Source of the DNA: Kribbella antibiotica
Lineage (GTDB): Bacteria > Actinomycetota > Actinomycetes > Propionibacteriales > Kribbellaceae
Assembly (NCBI RefSeq): GCF_004349055.1
Contig: NZ_SMKX01000032.1
Coordinates: 1 to 64,000, forward strand
Reading direction: 5' to 3'
DNA length: 64,000 nucleotides
The stretch's first letter is position 1, and each line of letters begins with the position of its first letter. The position numbers were made by a program, and so were the translations under genes. Below the pieces are notes generated by a model that worked only from the letters and a program-made list of their open reading frames with translations, was not told the DNA's origin and ran no database searches. Of the stretch, positions 1,494 to 61,207 are shown piece after piece.

Positions 1494-2556
<1,063 letters not shown>

Positions 2557-2674
2557 CTGACTGCCACCTGACCCATCTCGTCATTGGGCGAACTTTCCCA
2601 GCCGCCCGGAGGATTTCCGTCTCGCCAGAGAAGATATTCGGCGCCACGGACAGTTTTCGTCACCACCACGAATC

Positions 2675-2683
2675 TGTGGATAA
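2675..2683 (-). promoter_or_regulatory. DnaA-box-like nonamer upstream of recA
   Basis: TGTGGATAA on the plus strand is the reverse complement of the consensus DnaA box TTATCCACA, a perfect match. It lies between the LexA box and recA. One isolated box is weak evidence for DnaA control. Confidence 0.35.
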
Positions 2684-2723
2684 CCAGGCTGTCCGCCGCC
2701 CTTCCCGGAAGCACAAACTATCC

Positions 2724-2737
2724 CGAACACCTGTTCG
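2724..2737. promoter_or_regulatory. LexA (SOS) box upstream of recA
   Basis: CGAACACCTGTTCG is a perfect dyad of the actinobacterial SOS box (TCGAAC-N4-GTTCGA), lacking only the outermost T. It lies in the 251-bp spacer between recA and the divergent gene at 2808. It is about 170 bp from the recA start and 70 bp from the divergent GTG, so it could control either or both. LexA repression of recA is the established arrangement. Confidence 0.85.
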
Positions 2738-2807
2738 AATCACAAATTGACACGCCGAAGCCCACCCGGGCAACCGAACTGGCCCGGCCGCTCCCTACCC
2801 TTGCGGC

Positions 2808-3599
2808 GTGACCGACCGTCCCGACGTCCCCGATTCCGCCGTCGTCCTCGCCCTCAGCCGGGTCGAGTTCGGCCTCGACTCCGTCCTGGACGCGCTCCGG
2901 ACCCAGGATCCGTTCGGCATCCGCAGCCTGCTCACGGAGTACTCCGCGCAGGAGCGGCCGAACCTGGCCGAGCGGGGCCTGATCCTGGCGATCGACCGGC
3001 TGCTGCAGATGAAGGTGCCCGGTCACGCCGAGTGGCCGACGCTGCCGCTGGCCAAGCGCTGCGACTGGTGGGTCGAGCGGCTCGGCGGGTTCGCCGCCGT
3101 CATCGCGGGCCTGCCCCGGATCAGCGGCGCCGCAGCCGACCGGCTGCCGATCAAGGACACCCTGGGGGCAACCGTCCAGGCGATGGTGATCGGCGCGGTC
3201 TGCCGCGAGTACGGCGTCGAAGCGCACGCCGACCGGACGGCGGTCATCGCCCGCGTCCTCACCGATCGCCCGATCACCCCGGACGACGTCCTCCAGTACG
3301 ACGACCCGACCGCCGCCGGCCAGGACGTTGCCAAACAGTTGGGCTTCGGCGACGAGTCCGAGGAGGCCGGCCTGCGCAAGGGCATCCGGATGGTCTGGCG
3401 GATCAGCAAGCTGCTCGCCGGCCTCGGTGAGGTGTTCGAGGAGCGTCCGCGCGGCAGCCTCGGAGCACGGTTCATCGGCCAGCTGCCGGGGATCGGGGTG
3501 GTCGGCGGATTCTTCGACGAGCGCAAGGGCATCCGCAAAGCGGCGTACGAGGCAGCGGATCTGCTCACCAACGGCACGTTCCGGGTCAAGCCGCTCTGA
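2808..3599 (+). CDS. Conserved hypothetical protein divergent from recA
   Basis: 263 residues from GTG 2808; family not recognised with confidence. It is mostly helical, without a signal peptide. Visible features are a Trp pair (CDWWVERLGGF) near residue 86, a moderately hydrophobic stretch (TVQAMVIGAVCREYG) near 125, and a C-terminal Gly-rich hydrophobic segment (GQLPGIGVVGGFF) near 228 followed by charged helices. The C-terminus faintly recalls EcsC-like proteins, but I would not assign that. It diverges from recA across a spacer with a LexA box, so SOS control is possible. It is followed 35 bp later by the GrpB-family gene on the same strand. Confidence 0.7.
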   Translation: MTDRPDVPDSAVVLALSRVEFGLDSVLDALRTQDPFGIRSLLTEYSAQERPNLAERGLILAIDRLLQMKVPGHAEWPTLPLAKRCDWWVERLGGFAAVIAGLPRISGAAADRLPIKDTLGATVQAMVIGAVCREYGVEAHADRTAVIARVLTDRPITPDDVLQYDDPTAAGQDVAKQLGFGDESEEAGLRKGIRMVWRISKLLAGLGEVFEERPRGSLGARFIGQLPGIGVVGGFFDERKGIRKAAYEAADLLTNGTFRVKPL

Positions 3600-3634
3600 T
3601 CGACCCCGGGCCGCGCGACTGGAATGATCGGCGT

Positions 3635-4201
3635 ATGAATGCGATCGCCATCGTGCGCCCCGACGAGACCTGGCCGGCCCAGTTCGAGAAGACCGCGCAG
3701 ATGGTCTGGAAGGTGCTCGGCGAGCTTGCACAGCGCATCGACCACATCGGCTCGACATCGGTGCCCGGATTGCCGGCCAAGGACATCCTCGACATGCAGG
3801 TGACGGTCGCGGCCGAGTCCGAGCTGGACGCGGCGGCCGAGCGGATGGTCGCCGCGAACTGGGACTTCCGCCCCGGCGCCCAGCGTGATCACCCGGTCCC
3901 AGGCCTACCCGAGGATGAGCACCAGTGGGTGAAGCGGCTCGTGGTCGAGCCGATGTACCGGCGCCGGGTGAATCTCCACATCCGCGTGGCGGGTCGCGCC
4001 AACCAGCGCTATGCGTTGCTGTTCCGCGACTACCTGCGCAGCCACCCGGACACGGCCCAGGCGTACGGCGAGTTCAAGCGCCGCGCAGCCGCGCTGCCGT
4101 TCGACAACGTTGGCGACTACGCGGACCTGAAGGACCCGGTCTGCGATCTGATCTATCTGCCCGCCGAGGAATGGGCGGCGCGCGCCGGCTGGGCCGTCTG
4201 A
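3635..4201 (+). CDS. GrpB family protein (UPF0157 nucleotidyltransferase fold)
   Basis: 188 residues. The family signature is clear: an N-terminal D-x-x-W segment (RPDETWPAQFEKTA), then RIDHIGSTSVPGLPAKDILDMQVTV near 34-58, matching the GrpB hallmark in which H-x-GSTSVPG-x-x-AK-x-x-D builds a nucleotidyltransferase-like site. A later RRVNLHIRV...ALLFRDYLRSHP block is also typical. The molecular substrate is unknown; some relatives are fused to dephospho-CoA kinase (CoaE). It is convergent with DUF3046, with 13 bp between stops. Confidence 0.88.
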   Translation: MNAIAIVRPDETWPAQFEKTAQMVWKVLGELAQRIDHIGSTSVPGLPAKDILDMQVTVAAESELDAAAERMVAANWDFRPGAQRDHPVPGLPEDEHQWVKRLVVEPMYRRRVNLHIRVAGRANQRYALLFRDYLRSHPDTAQAYGEFKRRAAALPFDNVGDYADLKDPVCDLIYLPAEEWAARAGWAV

Positions 4202-4214
4202 CCGGTCGGTGCGC

Positions 4215-4409
4215 TCAGCGCTCGCTGGCCGGCAGCCGTAGATGGGCCCACACGGCCCGCCACACCGTCTTGGCGGCCTCGCCATCGGCCAGCGCCTCGA
4301 CGACCGTGCGGCCCTCGAGCTCCTCGACCACCTGGGTCTCGGCCCAACTCCGGGCATACGCCGGACCGAGATGATGGTCCATCCGCGTCCAGAATTCCGT
4401 CAGTCTCAT
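4215..4409 (-). CDS. DUF3046 family small protein
   Basis: 64 residues starting MRLTEFWTRMDHHLG, the typical N-terminus of DUF3046, an actinobacteria-specific family commonly encoded near recA-recX. It then has YARSWAETQVV and a C-terminal VWRAVWAHLRLP segment. Function is unknown. Its ATG overlaps the stop of the LppM-like gene (ATGA), so the two are co-transcribed and probably translationally coupled. Longer upstream starts in the same frame would read through the low-complexity tail of the neighbour and are rejected. Confidence 0.88.
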   Translation of the reverse strand: MRLTEFWTRMDHHLGPAYARSWAETQVVEELEGRTVVEALADGEAAKTVWRAVWAHLRLPASER

Positions 4410-21647: not shown

Positions 21648-22178
21648 TCAGGCGCCGGTAACGCCGTCGAGCTGTTCGCGGAGCAAGTCGGCATGCCCGC
21701 AGTGCCGGGCATACTCCCCCACCAGGTGGATGTAGATCATCCGCAGCGTCGATTCCGTGCCACCGAACTCGAACCGCTCGTCGAACGACCGTCCCGCCGC
21801 CGCCTCGCCCGACAGCTTCCACTCCGCGATCAGACCGTCGTACGACGCCTCTGCCGCGGCCGGATCGATGATTTCGAAGTCGGCGTCCTTGCCGAGCTCC
21901 GGCGCGAACAGCGGCTCGGCCTTCTCTCCCGCCGCGAGGTGGATCCGGAACCAGATCCGCTCAACCTTGGTCAGATGCCGGATCAGGCCGAGCAGCGACA
22001 GGTTCGAGGGCGGCGACGGCCGGGTGGCGAGCTGCTCGGCGGTCAGACCGGCGCACTTGTAGAGCAACGTGCTCCGGTAGAAGTCCAGATAGCCGCGCAG
22101 TAGCTCGGTTTCCGGTGCCGTCAAGGAGCCGTCGGGCCGCTCAACCTCAGGTGCGGTCCACGCCGCGATGTCGGTCAT
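21648..22178 (-). CDS. DinB-like / DUF664 family protein
   Basis: 176 residues from ATG 22178 (GTG 22193 is an alternative). The family pattern is visible: an early ETELLRGYLDFYRSTLLYKCAGL helix, LSLLGLIRHLTKVERIWFR near 67-86 with a putative metal-binding His, and a C-terminal MIYIHLVGEYARHCGHADLLRE with two more His. DinB/DUF664 proteins are four-helix bundles that bind a divalent metal; actinobacterial members often act with mycothiol as thiol transferases or isomerases. The specific reaction is unknown. Confidence 0.88.
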   Translation of the reverse strand: MTDIAAWTAPEVERPDGSLTAPETELLRGYLDFYRSTLLYKCAGLTAEQLATRPSPPSNLSLLGLIRHLTKVERIWFRIHLAAGEKAEPLFAPELGKDADFEIIDPAAAEASYDGLIAEWKLSGEAAAGRSFDERFEFGGTESTLRMIYIHLVGEYARHCGHADLLREQLDGVTGA

Positions 22179-22360
22179 CCCGCCATCCAACACGCCAGCT
22201 CAGGAGACCGCGAACCGATTACGGATACACGGCAATCGCACGATGATGCAGCCGCCAGATCACGCCTCACAGCTCCGGGTCGTCCCACGATGTGTCTGTT
22301 CATCTCATTGATCGAGATAGGGGCTGGCGCGTTCGTGGCCCGTTCGTTACCGTTCTCGGC

Positions 22361-22450
22361 AGGTCATGAGCGCCAGCGTCAAGCCCCGGCTCGCTGGCCG
22401 GCAACCCTCCTCCGCGGTGGGGTGCCCCGGGTGAAGACCAGGCCGTGCGG
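22361..22450 (+). promoter_or_regulatory. SAM-IV riboswitch
   Basis: The spacer before the class V aminotransferase matches the SAM-IV class of actinobacteria: P1 GGTC (22362) with GACC (22436), the ATGAGCGCCAGCG element, P2 GCCAGCG with CGCTGGC, GGCAACCCTCC, and the downstream GGTGCCCCGGGTGAAGACC with a pseudoknot partner. The aptamer binds S-adenosylmethionine and shuts down sulfur-related genes. The ribosome-binding GGAG (22481-22484) sits beside CTTCCCGGG, which could pair with it or with the aptamer tail, suggesting translational control. Confidence 0.88.
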
Positions 22451-22491
22451 ATACCCCGTTCGGCAAGTGCGGACTTCCCGGGAGCGAAGCC

Positions 22492-23853
22492 ATGTCGATC
22501 CTCTCCATCCTCGAGCCGGCCAGCAGCACCACCCCCCGTGCAGCGGTCACCCGGCGCACCGGCAGCATCCCCACCACCGTCGGCTCGGACCTGCTGGTCC
22601 CGCTGGCCGACGGCCGGGTGACGGACTACGCGAACTTCGACCACGGTGCCAGCGCCCCGTGTCTGGAGTCGGTGCGCGCCAGCGTCGAAGCGGCCCTGCC
22701 GTCGTACGCGTCGGTCCACCGCGGCAACGGCTACGCCTCCCGGATCACCACCCAGTGGTACGAGCGGGCCCGCACCGAGGTGCACAGCTTCGTAGGCGCT
22801 CGGGCAGACGACCAGGTGATCTTCACCCGGCAGACCACCGACGCACTCAATCTGCTGGCCCACGCCGTCCCGGCTGACGCCACTGTGATCGTCTTCGAGT
22901 CCGAGCACCACGCAGCGCTGCTGCCCTGGGGCGAGGAGCGCACCGTCCGGCTCGCAGCTCCCGCCTCGGCCACTGAGGCCGTGACCGCCGTCGCCAACGC
23001 GCTGCGGACCGCTCCGGAGGGCCCGCGCCTCGTCGTCGTCACCGGCGCTTCGAACGTGACCGGCGAGATCTTCCCGATCGCTGAGCTCGCCGCTGTCGCC
23101 AAGGCGCACGGCGCCCGGATCTGCCTGGACGCTGCGCAGCTCGCGCCGCACCGCGTCGTCGACATCGCCGCACTGGATGTCGACTGGGTAGCCATCTCCG
23201 GTCACAAGCTCTACGCGCCGTACGGCGCCGGTGCGCTGATCGGCCGCGCCGACTGGCTCAACGCCGCCGACCCCTACCTGTACGGCGGGGGCGCGACCAC
23301 CTCGGTCACCGGCGACGGTGTGGTCTGGGCGACCGGCCCGTCCCGCCACGAGGGCGGCTCCCCGAACGTCATCGGCGCGATCGCCCTCGCCTCGGCCTGC
23401 GCGACCATCAGCCGCAACCGCGACGCCATTGAGCAGCACGAGCGCAGCCTGCTCGCCCGGCTCCGTACCGGTCTCGCACAGATCGCCGACGTCACGACGT
23501 ACTCGATCTTCGGCGCCGAGGCCGACCGTGTCGGCACGGTGTGCTTCACCATCAAGGGCTTGAGCTCCACGCTGGTCTCCGCCGCGCTGAGCGCGGAGCA
23601 CGGCATCGGAGTCCGCGACGGCAAGTTCTGCGCCCACCCGCTGGTCGGTCATCTGCTGGCCGACTCACCCGAGCACGGTACGGCGGTCCGCGCCAGCCTC
23701 GGTCTGGGAACGACCCGCGAGCACGTGGACCGCCTCGTCAGCGCAGTGCGCTCGCTGGCCACCACCGGGCTGCGCGGAGAGTACGAGGACACCGACCACG
23801 GCTGTCAGCCGGCCGAGGACCCCCGCGACCTCCACGCGCCCCGCATCTGGTGA
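22492..23853 (+). CDS. PLP-dependent class V aminotransferase / cysteine desulfurase-like, SAM-IV regulated
   Basis: 453 residues. The class V fold is evident: YANFDHGASAPCLESV near 44, VIFTRQTTDALNLLAH near 110, and the PLP lysine in ISGHKLYAPYGAGALIGR near 240. A substrate-loop segment GGGATTSVTGDGVVW follows. The catalytic Cys loop of true cysteine desulfurases is not obvious, so this may be a lyase or transferase on a sulfur amino acid. The SAM-IV riboswitch upstream ties it to methionine/cysteine supply. GGAG lies 8 nt before the ATG. The 3' end converges on the prolyl oligopeptidase, with 19 bp between stops. Confidence 0.88.
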   Translation: MSILSILEPASSTTPRAAVTRRTGSIPTTVGSDLLVPLADGRVTDYANFDHGASAPCLESVRASVEAALPSYASVHRGNGYASRITTQWYERARTEVHSFVGARADDQVIFTRQTTDALNLLAHAVPADATVIVFESEHHAALLPWGEERTVRLAAPASATEAVTAVANALRTAPEGPRLVVVTGASNVTGEIFPIAELAAVAKAHGARICLDAAQLAPHRVVDIAALDVDWVAISGHKLYAPYGAGALIGRADWLNAADPYLYGGGATTSVTGDGVVWATGPSRHEGGSPNVIGAIALASACATISRNRDAIEQHERSLLARLRTGLAQIADVTTYSIFGAEADRVGTVCFTIKGLSSTLVSAALSAEHGIGVRDGKFCAHPLVGHLLADSPEHGTAVRASLGLGTTREHVDRLVSAVRSLATTGLRGEYEDTDHGCQPAEDPRDLHAPRIW

Positions 23854-23872: not shown

Positions 23873-25924
23873 CTACTGCTCGGGAGTTTCCAGACCTACA
23901 AGGTGAGCGGCAAACGCCAATAGGTCCGCCCACTCCGCTGCGATCATCGCGGCGGGTTTGCCGAAGCCGTGACCGGTGTTGACCTCTACTCGGGTCAAGA
24001 CGGGTTCGGCCGCGGATTGGGCATGCTGCAAGGCAGCAATGAACTTGTGACTGTGCAACGGGACGACCCGGTCATCGTGGTCACCGGTGACCACCAGTGT
24101 GGCCGGGTACTCCGTACCGTCCTGCACGCGATGCAGCGGCGAGTAGGCCAGCAGGTCCTCGAACTGCTCCGGGTTGTCCGGATGCCCGAAGTCGGATGCC
24201 CAGGCGGCGCCCACCGTGAAGAGGTGGAAGCGCAGCATGTCCAGGACGCCGACACCTGGCAGCGCAACCTTGAAGAGGTCGGGGCGCTGTGTCATGACGG
24301 CTCCGACGAGCAGTCCGCCGTTGCTGCGACCGTGAATGGCCAGCTGTTCAGGTGTGGTCACACCGGTGTCGCGGAGGTGCTCTGCGACCGCAATGAAGTC
24401 GTCGAACACCTGCTGCTTGCGCTTGAGTCGCCCTGCGTCGTGCCAGTCGCTCCCGTACTCACCGCCGCCGCGCAGGTTCGAGATCGCCAGCACACCCCCG
24501 GCCGCGAGCCATGCCGCCCAGCCAGGCTTGTAGTCGGCCTGGATCGAGATGCGAAAGCCGCCGTACCCGTAGAGCATCGCGGGGCGCGGTGCGCTGAAGT
24601 CGAGGTCGGCGCGAGTGATCAGGAAGTACGGAACGTCTCCGGCCACCTGTCGCGTCACAGTCACCTCAGGCGACTCGTAACCGCCCGCACCGCGGACCAG
24701 CTCGGGTAGCGCCCGAACCGCGCCGGTCGATGCCGAGACGACGTACGAGACCGTCGGATCAGTGACGGTCGACAAACCGATGAAGAGCTCGTCCTGCTTG
24801 GTGCTGGCGTTCAGAGCCAGCACACCACCGCCCTGTACGTCGACCACCTGCGCACCGGAGCCGTCGAGCGCGTAGAGCGTGAGCACGGGCTGAGCGTCGA
24901 TCAGGGTGATGGTCGCGAGCCCCGACGCCGTTCCGCGAACAGACTGCAGGGCGTGCGGCCCCTCGGGGATGAGATCGGTGAACGTGCCGTCGAAGTCGGC
25001 GAGCACCACGCGGCCGCGGGACGCCTGACGGTCGGTCTGCAGCACCAGCTGGTCACCGGACATCCGGATGAAGAAGATCTCGTCGACGAGCTCGTCGACT
25101 ACCTTGATCGGCTCACCGAAACCGTCAGCGGTGATCGGGTAGACCCACAACCGGGAGGCGGGGTCGGTACCGGCGTTGATGGTGACCACGACGTACCGGT
25201 CGTCGTCGGAGATCTCCGGCGAGATGAACAGCCGGTCCTCGCCGGGGAATGCGAGCAGCAGCTCGTCGTCGGATTGCGGCGTACCGATGCGGTGCAGTTT
25301 CAGCTGCCCACCGGACAGCGACGTCGTCTCTGTGCCCTCACTGCGCCCACCGGTCGGGTAGTGCAGATACAGGTACGCAGAACTGTCGGGGAGCCAGGTT
25401 GCCTCGCAGAACTTGGCTTCCGTGACCACGTCGTCGACCGCGTCACCAGTGGCGATGTCGAGCAACCGGAACGTCGTCCAGTCGCTACCGCTCTCGTTGA
25501 TGCCGTAGGCAAAGTACTTGCCGTCCGGGCTGACAGTGAACGTGCCCAGTGAGTCAGTGCCGTCCGCAGAGAGCTTGTTCGGGTCGATCAGGACCCGGCC
25601 ACCGTCCAGGAGCTCTTGCAGGGACTCCGCGACGTACACGACCTCCTGCGCCTGGGTGCCGTCGTTGCGACCGACGAAGTACCAGCCGCTCTTACTGGCA
25701 GGCACTCCGGCGCGCGGGCGGGCCAGAACCGCAGACAGCGTGGTCTGGAACCACTCGCGCTCCGGATAGCCCGCCAGTTCGGCCTGGGTGTACTCGTTCT
25801 GCCGCCGGACCCAGTCCTGGGTCTCGGGCGCGTCAGCATCTTCCAGCCAGCGGTACGGATCGGCGATCGGGTGCCCATGCAGGGTCTCGACCACATCGCC
25901 GCGGCGGGTCTCCGGATAGGTCAT
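23873..25924 (-). CDS. Prolyl oligopeptidase family serine peptidase (S9A)
   Basis: 683 residues, cytosolic in appearance (no signal peptide). The N-terminal DPYRWLED motif near 22-29 is typical of S9A enzymes. A seven-bladed beta-propeller runs to about 400, then an alpha/beta-hydrolase domain with nucleophile GRSNGG (Ser about 532), acid in GDHDDRVVP (about 617) and His in NTGHGFGK (about 652). It cleaves short peptides after proline. It follows phoD on the same strand, but a long hairpin separates them, so it is probably transcribed separately. Confidence 0.93.
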   Translation of the reverse strand: MTYPETRRGDVVETLHGHPIADPYRWLEDADAPETQDWVRRQNEYTQAELAGYPEREWFQTTLSAVLARPRAGVPASKSGWYFVGRNDGTQAQEVVYVAESLQELLDGGRVLIDPNKLSADGTDSLGTFTVSPDGKYFAYGINESGSDWTTFRLLDIATGDAVDDVVTEAKFCEATWLPDSSAYLYLHYPTGGRSEGTETTSLSGGQLKLHRIGTPQSDDELLLAFPGEDRLFISPEISDDDRYVVVTINAGTDPASRLWVYPITADGFGEPIKVVDELVDEIFFIRMSGDQLVLQTDRQASRGRVVLADFDGTFTDLIPEGPHALQSVRGTASGLATITLIDAQPVLTLYALDGSGAQVVDVQGGGVLALNASTKQDELFIGLSTVTDPTVSYVVSASTGAVRALPELVRGAGGYESPEVTVTRQVAGDVPYFLITRADLDFSAPRPAMLYGYGGFRISIQADYKPGWAAWLAAGGVLAISNLRGGGEYGSDWHDAGRLKRKQQVFDDFIAVAEHLRDTGVTTPEQLAIHGRSNGGLLVGAVMTQRPDLFKVALPGVGVLDMLRFHLFTVGAAWASDFGHPDNPEQFEDLLAYSPLHRVQDGTEYPATLVVTGDHDDRVVPLHSHKFIAALQHAQSAAEPVLTRVEVNTGHGFGKPAAMIAAEWADLLAFAAHLVGLETPEQ

Positions 25925-61040: not shown

Positions 61041-61207
61041 GGGATACCCCTCTCGTCACAGTGTTGACGACTGCGAGGCGCGAGCTATCGGGTGCCGGTC
61101 TTCGATCGAGGCCCGCGGATTCCGTCTGAATCCGAAGGTCACTACCGAGGACCGGGTCCTCCCGCCACGCGCTTCGCGTCGCCTCGTTACGTCTGTATTC
61201 AGTTGTG

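Follow-up and report, generated by a model that had tools for sequence, protein, structure and literature searches.

In the analysed window, which comprises the first 64,000 nucleotides of contig NZ_SMKX01000032.1 of Kribbella antibiotica, a full-length SAM-IV riboswitch aptamer lies in front of an open reading frame that starts with ATG and encodes 453 amino acids (22492-23853 on the plus strand), the sole gene 3' of the riboswitch on that strand. Because both neighbors, a mycothiol S-transferase/DinB gene upstream (21648-22193, minus) and a prolyl oligopeptidase gene downstream (23873-25924, minus), are on the opposite strand, the gene stands alone, just as the initial annotation had described. 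The features of the locus are as follows.

22362..22475, plus strand: SAM-IV riboswitch aptamer (RF00634), by cmscan and covariation
22411..22415, plus strand: P3-loop strand UCCGC of the aptamer's 3' pseudoknot, pairing with 22469-22473
22469..22473, plus strand: 3' pseudoknot strand GCGGA, 6 nt 5' of GGGAG, by leader alignment and covariation
22480..22484, plus strand: Shine-Dalgarno-like GGGAG of presumed function, 7 nt before the ATG, by sequence and an alignment of 38 leaders
22492..23853, plus strand: SAM-IV-associated group II cysteine desulfurase homolog, 453 aa, monocistronic, by PF00266, TIGR01979 and PDB matches
23206..23208, plus strand: codon of Lys239, predicted PLP Schiff-base lysine (SGHK), by conservation and SufS alignment
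23629..23631, plus strand: codon of Cys380, predicted persulfide-forming cysteine of the RDGKFCAH loop, invariant and aligned with the SufS Cys

A covariance search, which the initial annotation had itself named as the test of its claim of a complete SAM-IV aptamer, upheld that claim: in a cmscan search of the window the element scored 114.7 bits for RF00634, for which the gathering score is 38, at an E value of 1.8e-20, and the match covered the model over its full 116 positions (1-116). The reference description of this riboswitch class is, according to citing papers, said to be that of Weinberg et al. 2008. When the Rfam consensus, a choice that favors this structure over slid versions of it, was scored across 45 diverse SAM-IV sequences, 92.0% of the cells were paired and two-sided changes were found at 21 of the 36 pairs, and none of 500 shuffles reached the paired-cell or the two-sided-change value. 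For the pseudoknot helix (helix 5), the corresponding figures were 92.9% and two of five pairs. The cmscan score is far above chance, and the aptamer is complete and real; the minimum-energy fold of 22355-22520, which was no more stable than shuffles (z 1.09), is no evidence either way. While the target usually described for SAM-IV, according to the accessible part of PMC4239095, is metXY in Actinomycetales, the full-length and covariation-supported aptamer of Kribbella precedes a desulfurase homolog instead.

As for the mode of control, the Kribbella aptamer ends 16 nt before the ATG and its pseudoknot strand 6 nt before the GGGAG core, which is largely kept in the alignment of the 38 Kribbella leaders. 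Scanning of the leader yielded neither an intrinsic terminator nor a sigma-70-type promoter, and both candidates were rejected. The simplest inference from this layout of aptamer end, pseudoknot and GGGAG, with no terminator-like site, is that the Kribbella switch works chiefly at the level of translation initiation, and established SAM-IV biology suggests that SAM binding would turn the desulfurase gene off. In contrast to the short Kribbella leader, the corresponding type of locus in Streptomyces clavuligerus gave a premature transcript, according to the available excerpt of PMC8269248, and leader lengths across taxa, as extrapolated from alignment starts, range from about 0 to 214 nt; other lineages may thus use transcriptional control.

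Catalytic residues, fold and family of the enzyme

The protein matched PF00266 (Aminotran_5) with 258 bits, in agreement with its earlier assignment to the class V PLP enzymes, and its nearest named relative was found in Kribbella albertanoniae (95% identity). The initial annotation had, however, seen no obvious desulfurase Cys loop and had considered the role of the enzyme not predictable from the protein alone, and both statements proved incorrect. In a phmmer alignment, residues 375-384 (RDGKFCAHPL) were aligned with RTGHHCAMPL of E. coli SufS, and SGHKLYAP of the query stood opposite SGHKLYGP. Among 123 complete, non-redundant orthologs, every one had Cys380 (non-redundant meaning non-identical sequence stretches, some loci repeating the same genome), and Lys239, Arg375, Gly377, Phe379, Ala381, His382 and Arg400 were conserved in at least 97% of them; the roles of a PLP lysine of the Lys239 type and of a carboxylate-binding arginine of the Arg400 type are well established. 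The loop Cys was also kept in all 19 alignment rows, including that of a CsdA-family protein from Mixta (L070). An enzyme devoid of the desulfurase Cys loop was therefore rejected on the basis of the SufS alignment and the invariance of Cys380. The idea of a further invariant cysteine, located in the C-terminal tail and acting as sulfur acceptor, was likewise rejected since only Cys380 is invariant, Cys438 being present in 36% and Cys303 in 87% of the 123 orthologs.

Structural comparison pointed in the same direction. An AlphaFold2 model of the desulfurase homolog (mean pLDDT 84.1) found its best fold matches among SufS structures, to which its sequence identity is about 28-30%, with 4w91 giving a Z score of 44.0 and an rmsd of 2.1 over 380 aligned residues, and Foldseek agreed; across the sequence and structure searches, the top PDB matches were all cysteine desulfurases. 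In the phmmer comparison, SufS-type PDB chains scored 3e-50 versus 6.9e-14 for the C-S lyase 1elq. Loop, PLP lysine, substrate arginine and fold mark the protein as a predicted group II (SufS/CsdA-type) cysteine desulfurase homolog whose catalytic loop is intact; its most likely activity is the removal of sulfur from cysteine.

It does not, however, belong to any of the named families compared. The best NCBIfam family was SufS (TIGR01979), with 265.1 bits versus a cut-off of 475.1, and lower scores came from CsdA (TIGR03392; 174.9 versus 493.6), the selenocysteine lyase model SclA (127.7 versus 525) and EgtE of ergothioneine synthesis (TIGR04343; 46.6 versus 400). An identity as SufS, CsdA or EgtE proper was rejected, all of these scores lying under the curated cut-offs. 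In a phylogenetic tree, a branch supported at 100/99 separated 34 SAM-IV-type enzymes from CsdA and from the genome's own paralogs. Among these paralogs are L003, a SufS encoded beside a SufC ABC protein at another site in the genome, and L004, a cargo desulfurase of the family 2A type, both named from sequence reading and from the comparison and tree with the desulfurase homolog. Thus, while the Kribbella enzyme shares with SufS and CsdA the fold, the PLP lysine, the catalytic Cys loop and the substrate arginine, it differs from SufS in its sub-cut-off SufS and CsdA scores, its position outside a suf operon (no suf gene was seen beside the SAM-IV desulfurase in the loci read) and its loop, which reads RxGxFCAH in the clade of SAM-IV-type enzymes versus RxGHHCA in SufS. 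Since a Phe precedes the Cys where SufS has His, the partner or substrate may differ. By these sequence criteria, the enzyme is not a member of the SufS family and forms a clade of its own.

Distribution of the riboswitch-enzyme pairing

All 38 Kribbella genomes carry SAM-IV, four of them in two copies, and in each of the 38 an ortholog with at least 79% identity follows a SAM-IV element. Across the class, SAM-IV was present in 226 of the 345 sampled genomes and the ortholog, defined by an E value below 1e-70, in 129, of which 121 also have SAM-IV and eight do not. Outside Kribbella, 69 ortholog loci were examined: 40 (L169-L208) had been picked for breadth across genera, 18 were taken from the 29 loci of high identity (L130-L158), and 11 were named loci (L059-L069). 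In 61 of the 69, an Rfam search placed SAM-IV on the same strand directly upstream within about 214 nt, and the remaining eight are exactly the eight ortholog genomes without SAM-IV. Some of the gene calls in neighboring loci came from a home-made GC-bias heuristic. Viewed from the riboswitch, 18 of the best 30 class-wide SAM-IV loci precede the ortholog, and all but one of the remaining 12 lie 5' of an ORF judged by eye to be of the MetY type, metY being placed at the same spot in several of them (e.g., G060, G294 and G195), so that homocysteine synthesis and this enzyme appear as the two main seats of SAM-IV. The pairing is thus a conserved Actinomycete arrangement.

As such, the pairing is nothing unusual and has been published before for two Streptomyces, as far as the available excerpts of the two papers go: SAM-IV is located 5' of SLIV_26975, a "cysteine desulfurase", in Streptomyces lividans TK24 (PMC8079986) and 5' of CRV15_21540 in S. 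clavuligerus (PMC8269248), and the pairing of riboswitch with cysteine desulfurase or class V aminotransferase resembles that of Kribbella by description. What the present analysis adds is the corrected identity of the enzyme, its placement in a clade of its own, and a proposed connection with MetM/MetO and MetY that can be tested. Precedent for SAM-responsive control of a desulfurase comes from Vibrionales, in which csd is a predicted MetJ target according to the accessible part of PMC4239095.

Proposed link to homocysteine synthesis

A genome-wide search of K. antibiotica for SAM-IV and SAM-I detected one element of each class. The single SAM-I precedes a threonine-synthase-like gene, next to which a 92-aa carrier of the ThiS family with the C-terminus AVAGGC is encoded, and the pair is, judging by its make-up, metM-metO (homocysteine synthase plus sulfur carrier). 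In Streptomyces albulus, MetM and MetO reportedly turn O-phosphohomoserine into homocysteine via the thiocarboxylated carrier, in work attributed to Hasebe et al. 2024. The route is supported, and a SAM riboswitch mentioned too, in the accessible part of PMC12172450, and the excerpt of PMC8079986 places SAM-I 5' of a two-gene "threonine biosynthesis" unit and SAM-IV 5' of the "cysteine desulfurase" in S. lividans. The Kribbella genome likewise has metM and metO homologs under SAM-I, whereas its desulfurase gene is on another contig; the link of the desulfurase to MetM/MetO is a proposal. SAM-I was upstream in 10 of 10 metM loci examined, and metO was detectable beside metM in seven of them. 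The Kribbella MetO (L129/L159, 670-945, minus) ends with GGC rather than GG, as do those of L160, L162 and L163, while those of L161, L164 and L165 show GG at the end; trimming of the last residue may be needed where the carrier ends with GGC. The genome further encodes a ThiF-rhodanese protein that could in principle charge carriers of the MetO type, as well as metX-metY without SAM-IV in front. A point against such a link is that the desulfurase gene is not beside met genes in Kribbella, and no metO adjoined a desulfurase gene in the loci examined.

On the ground that the genome's only SAM-I controls metM-metO, we propose, with a probability of roughly 60%, that the lone SufS/CsdA-group desulfurase under SAM-IV is repressed by SAM and supplies sulfur for making homocysteine; the initial annotation, which placed the enzyme in the methionine, cysteine or SAM economy, was in our judgment right. 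At high SAM, binding to SAM-IV would keep the desulfurase gene off. At low SAM, the enzyme would take the sulfur of cysteine as a persulfide on Cys380 and pass it through the ThiF-rhodanese protein to the sulfur carrier MetO, from which MetM would form homocysteine with O-phosphohomoserine; alternatively, the sulfur could leave as sulfide to MetY. Overall, these steps would shunt sulfur from cysteine to methionine without passing through cystathionine, and independently of the SUF enzyme serving iron-sulfur clusters. A bolder version, which we regard as tentative and somewhat against the odds, is that the desulfurases under SAM-IV make up a family of their own, hitherto without a name, of SAM-repressed enzymes dedicated to donating sulfur to homocysteine, which charge MetO, via ThiF-rhodanese, for MetM and feed MetY in lineages without MetM. 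If this were true, two SAM riboswitch classes would jointly control the cystathionine-free shunt. Should the sulfur-supplier proposal hold, the sulfur donor of the MetM/MetO methionine route would be named, the SAM control of a cysteine desulfurase in many Actinomycetes (ortholog in 129 of 345 genomes, SAM-IV in 121 of these) would be explained, and annotations as a generic aminotransferase or under thiamine would be corrected. Our literature search found no link between the SAM-IV desulfurase and MetM/MetO; Hasebe et al. 2024 lay outside that search and may mention it.

The co-occurrence of the genes was examined in cross-tables of the 345 genomes, from which two fringe metM hits (G044 and G060) were dropped, the genus-level metM count likewise being the tally minus these two. 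Counted by genome, metM was present in 107 of the 129 ortholog genomes versus 113 of the 216 others (107/22/113/103, p 5e-9); by genus, the association was not significant (35/12/48/32, p 0.12). Among the 107 genomes with ortholog and metM, 63 lack metY and 44 have it, and all 22 ortholog genomes without metM have metY, so that none of the 129 ortholog genomes lacks both, versus 12 of the 216 others. On the other hand, 57 of the 345 class genomes have metM with neither metY nor the ortholog, and thus MetM/MetO does not need the desulfurase. An exclusive partnership of the desulfurase with MetM/MetO is unsupported in light of these 57 genomes and the 22 ortholog genomes without metM; the counts agree better with an enzyme that serves both MetO/MetM and MetY, and the co-occurrence favors the sulfur-supplier proposal weakly and only in part.

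Among other explanations, the enzyme might be a C-S lyase acting on cysteine or a cysteine derivative, which would yield free sulfide or handle excess cysteine under SAM regulation, untied to homocysteine synthesis. C-S lyases such as 1elq do occur among the related class V enzymes, and in one locus (L175 of G052, 1878-4341) an ortholog without SAM-IV is followed by a CysE-like serine acetyltransferase (Hexapep match) and a CysK-like cysteine synthase ORF, names that come from sequence reading apart from the Pfam match. The desulfurase cysteine is, however, invariant in the orthologs, SufS-type chains match far better than the lyase, and SAM-IV elsewhere marks metY loci, all of which makes this explanation unlikely, though still the best placed of the alternatives.

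Still less probable is a spare iron-sulfur desulfurase whose SAM control would reflect the demand of radical-SAM or Fe-S enzymes: although in fold and sequence the enzyme is nearest to the SufS proteins, which act in Fe-S assembly, the genome already encodes a SufS together with SufC at another site, and the shortfall from the SufS cut-off, the separate clade and the absence of suf genes from the loci read argue against it. We give an equally small chance to another class V reaction, namely that of a selenocysteine lyase or of a desulfurase for thiamine or secondary metabolites. The SclA match is far below its cut-off, and while the S. lividans gene is filed under thiamine metabolism in the available part of PMC8079986, an enzyme of thiamine synthesis would be expected behind a TPP riboswitch and not behind SAM-IV, and the searches of the loci reported no TPP element.

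Further riboswitch-linked loci

In the four Kribbella genomes with two copies, the second SAM-IV lies directly 5' of a stand-alone GNAT-type acetyltransferase gene (L071-L074); the products of L071 and L074 match Acetyltransf_1 and that of L073 Acetyltransf_3, and L072 resembles L071 by eye. An acetyltransferase of this kind was not found as a known SAM-IV target in our literature search. Two back-to-back SAM-IV elements occur in L182 of G083 (1956-2073, minus, and 2175-2291, plus), one 5' of the desulfurase and the other 5' of a luciferase-like monooxygenase (PF00296); some members of this family are enzymes that use organosulfur compounds. In L177 of G068, the desulfurase SAM-IV is back to back with a SAM-I (2093-2182, minus, and 2347-2461, plus), the latter preceding genes that resemble a 2OG-Fe(II)/WelO5-type oxygenase and, weakly and below the cut-off, a cyclodipeptide synthase, so that a SAM-controlled biosynthetic cluster is possible at this locus. 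A c-di-AMP riboswitch (RF00379), just above the gathering score, was matched 3' of the desulfurase gene in two Flexivirga records (L062, 7632-7773, plus; L066, 6623-6762, plus). The record named Streptomyces sp. SID13031 (L056), which was placed in the Kribbella genus sample, has an ortholog of the Kribbella kind (85%), so that its label is probably wrong and the strain a Kribbella. Within the window itself, an Actino-pnp RNA (RF01688) was matched with 64.1 bits at 61094-61156 on the minus strand.
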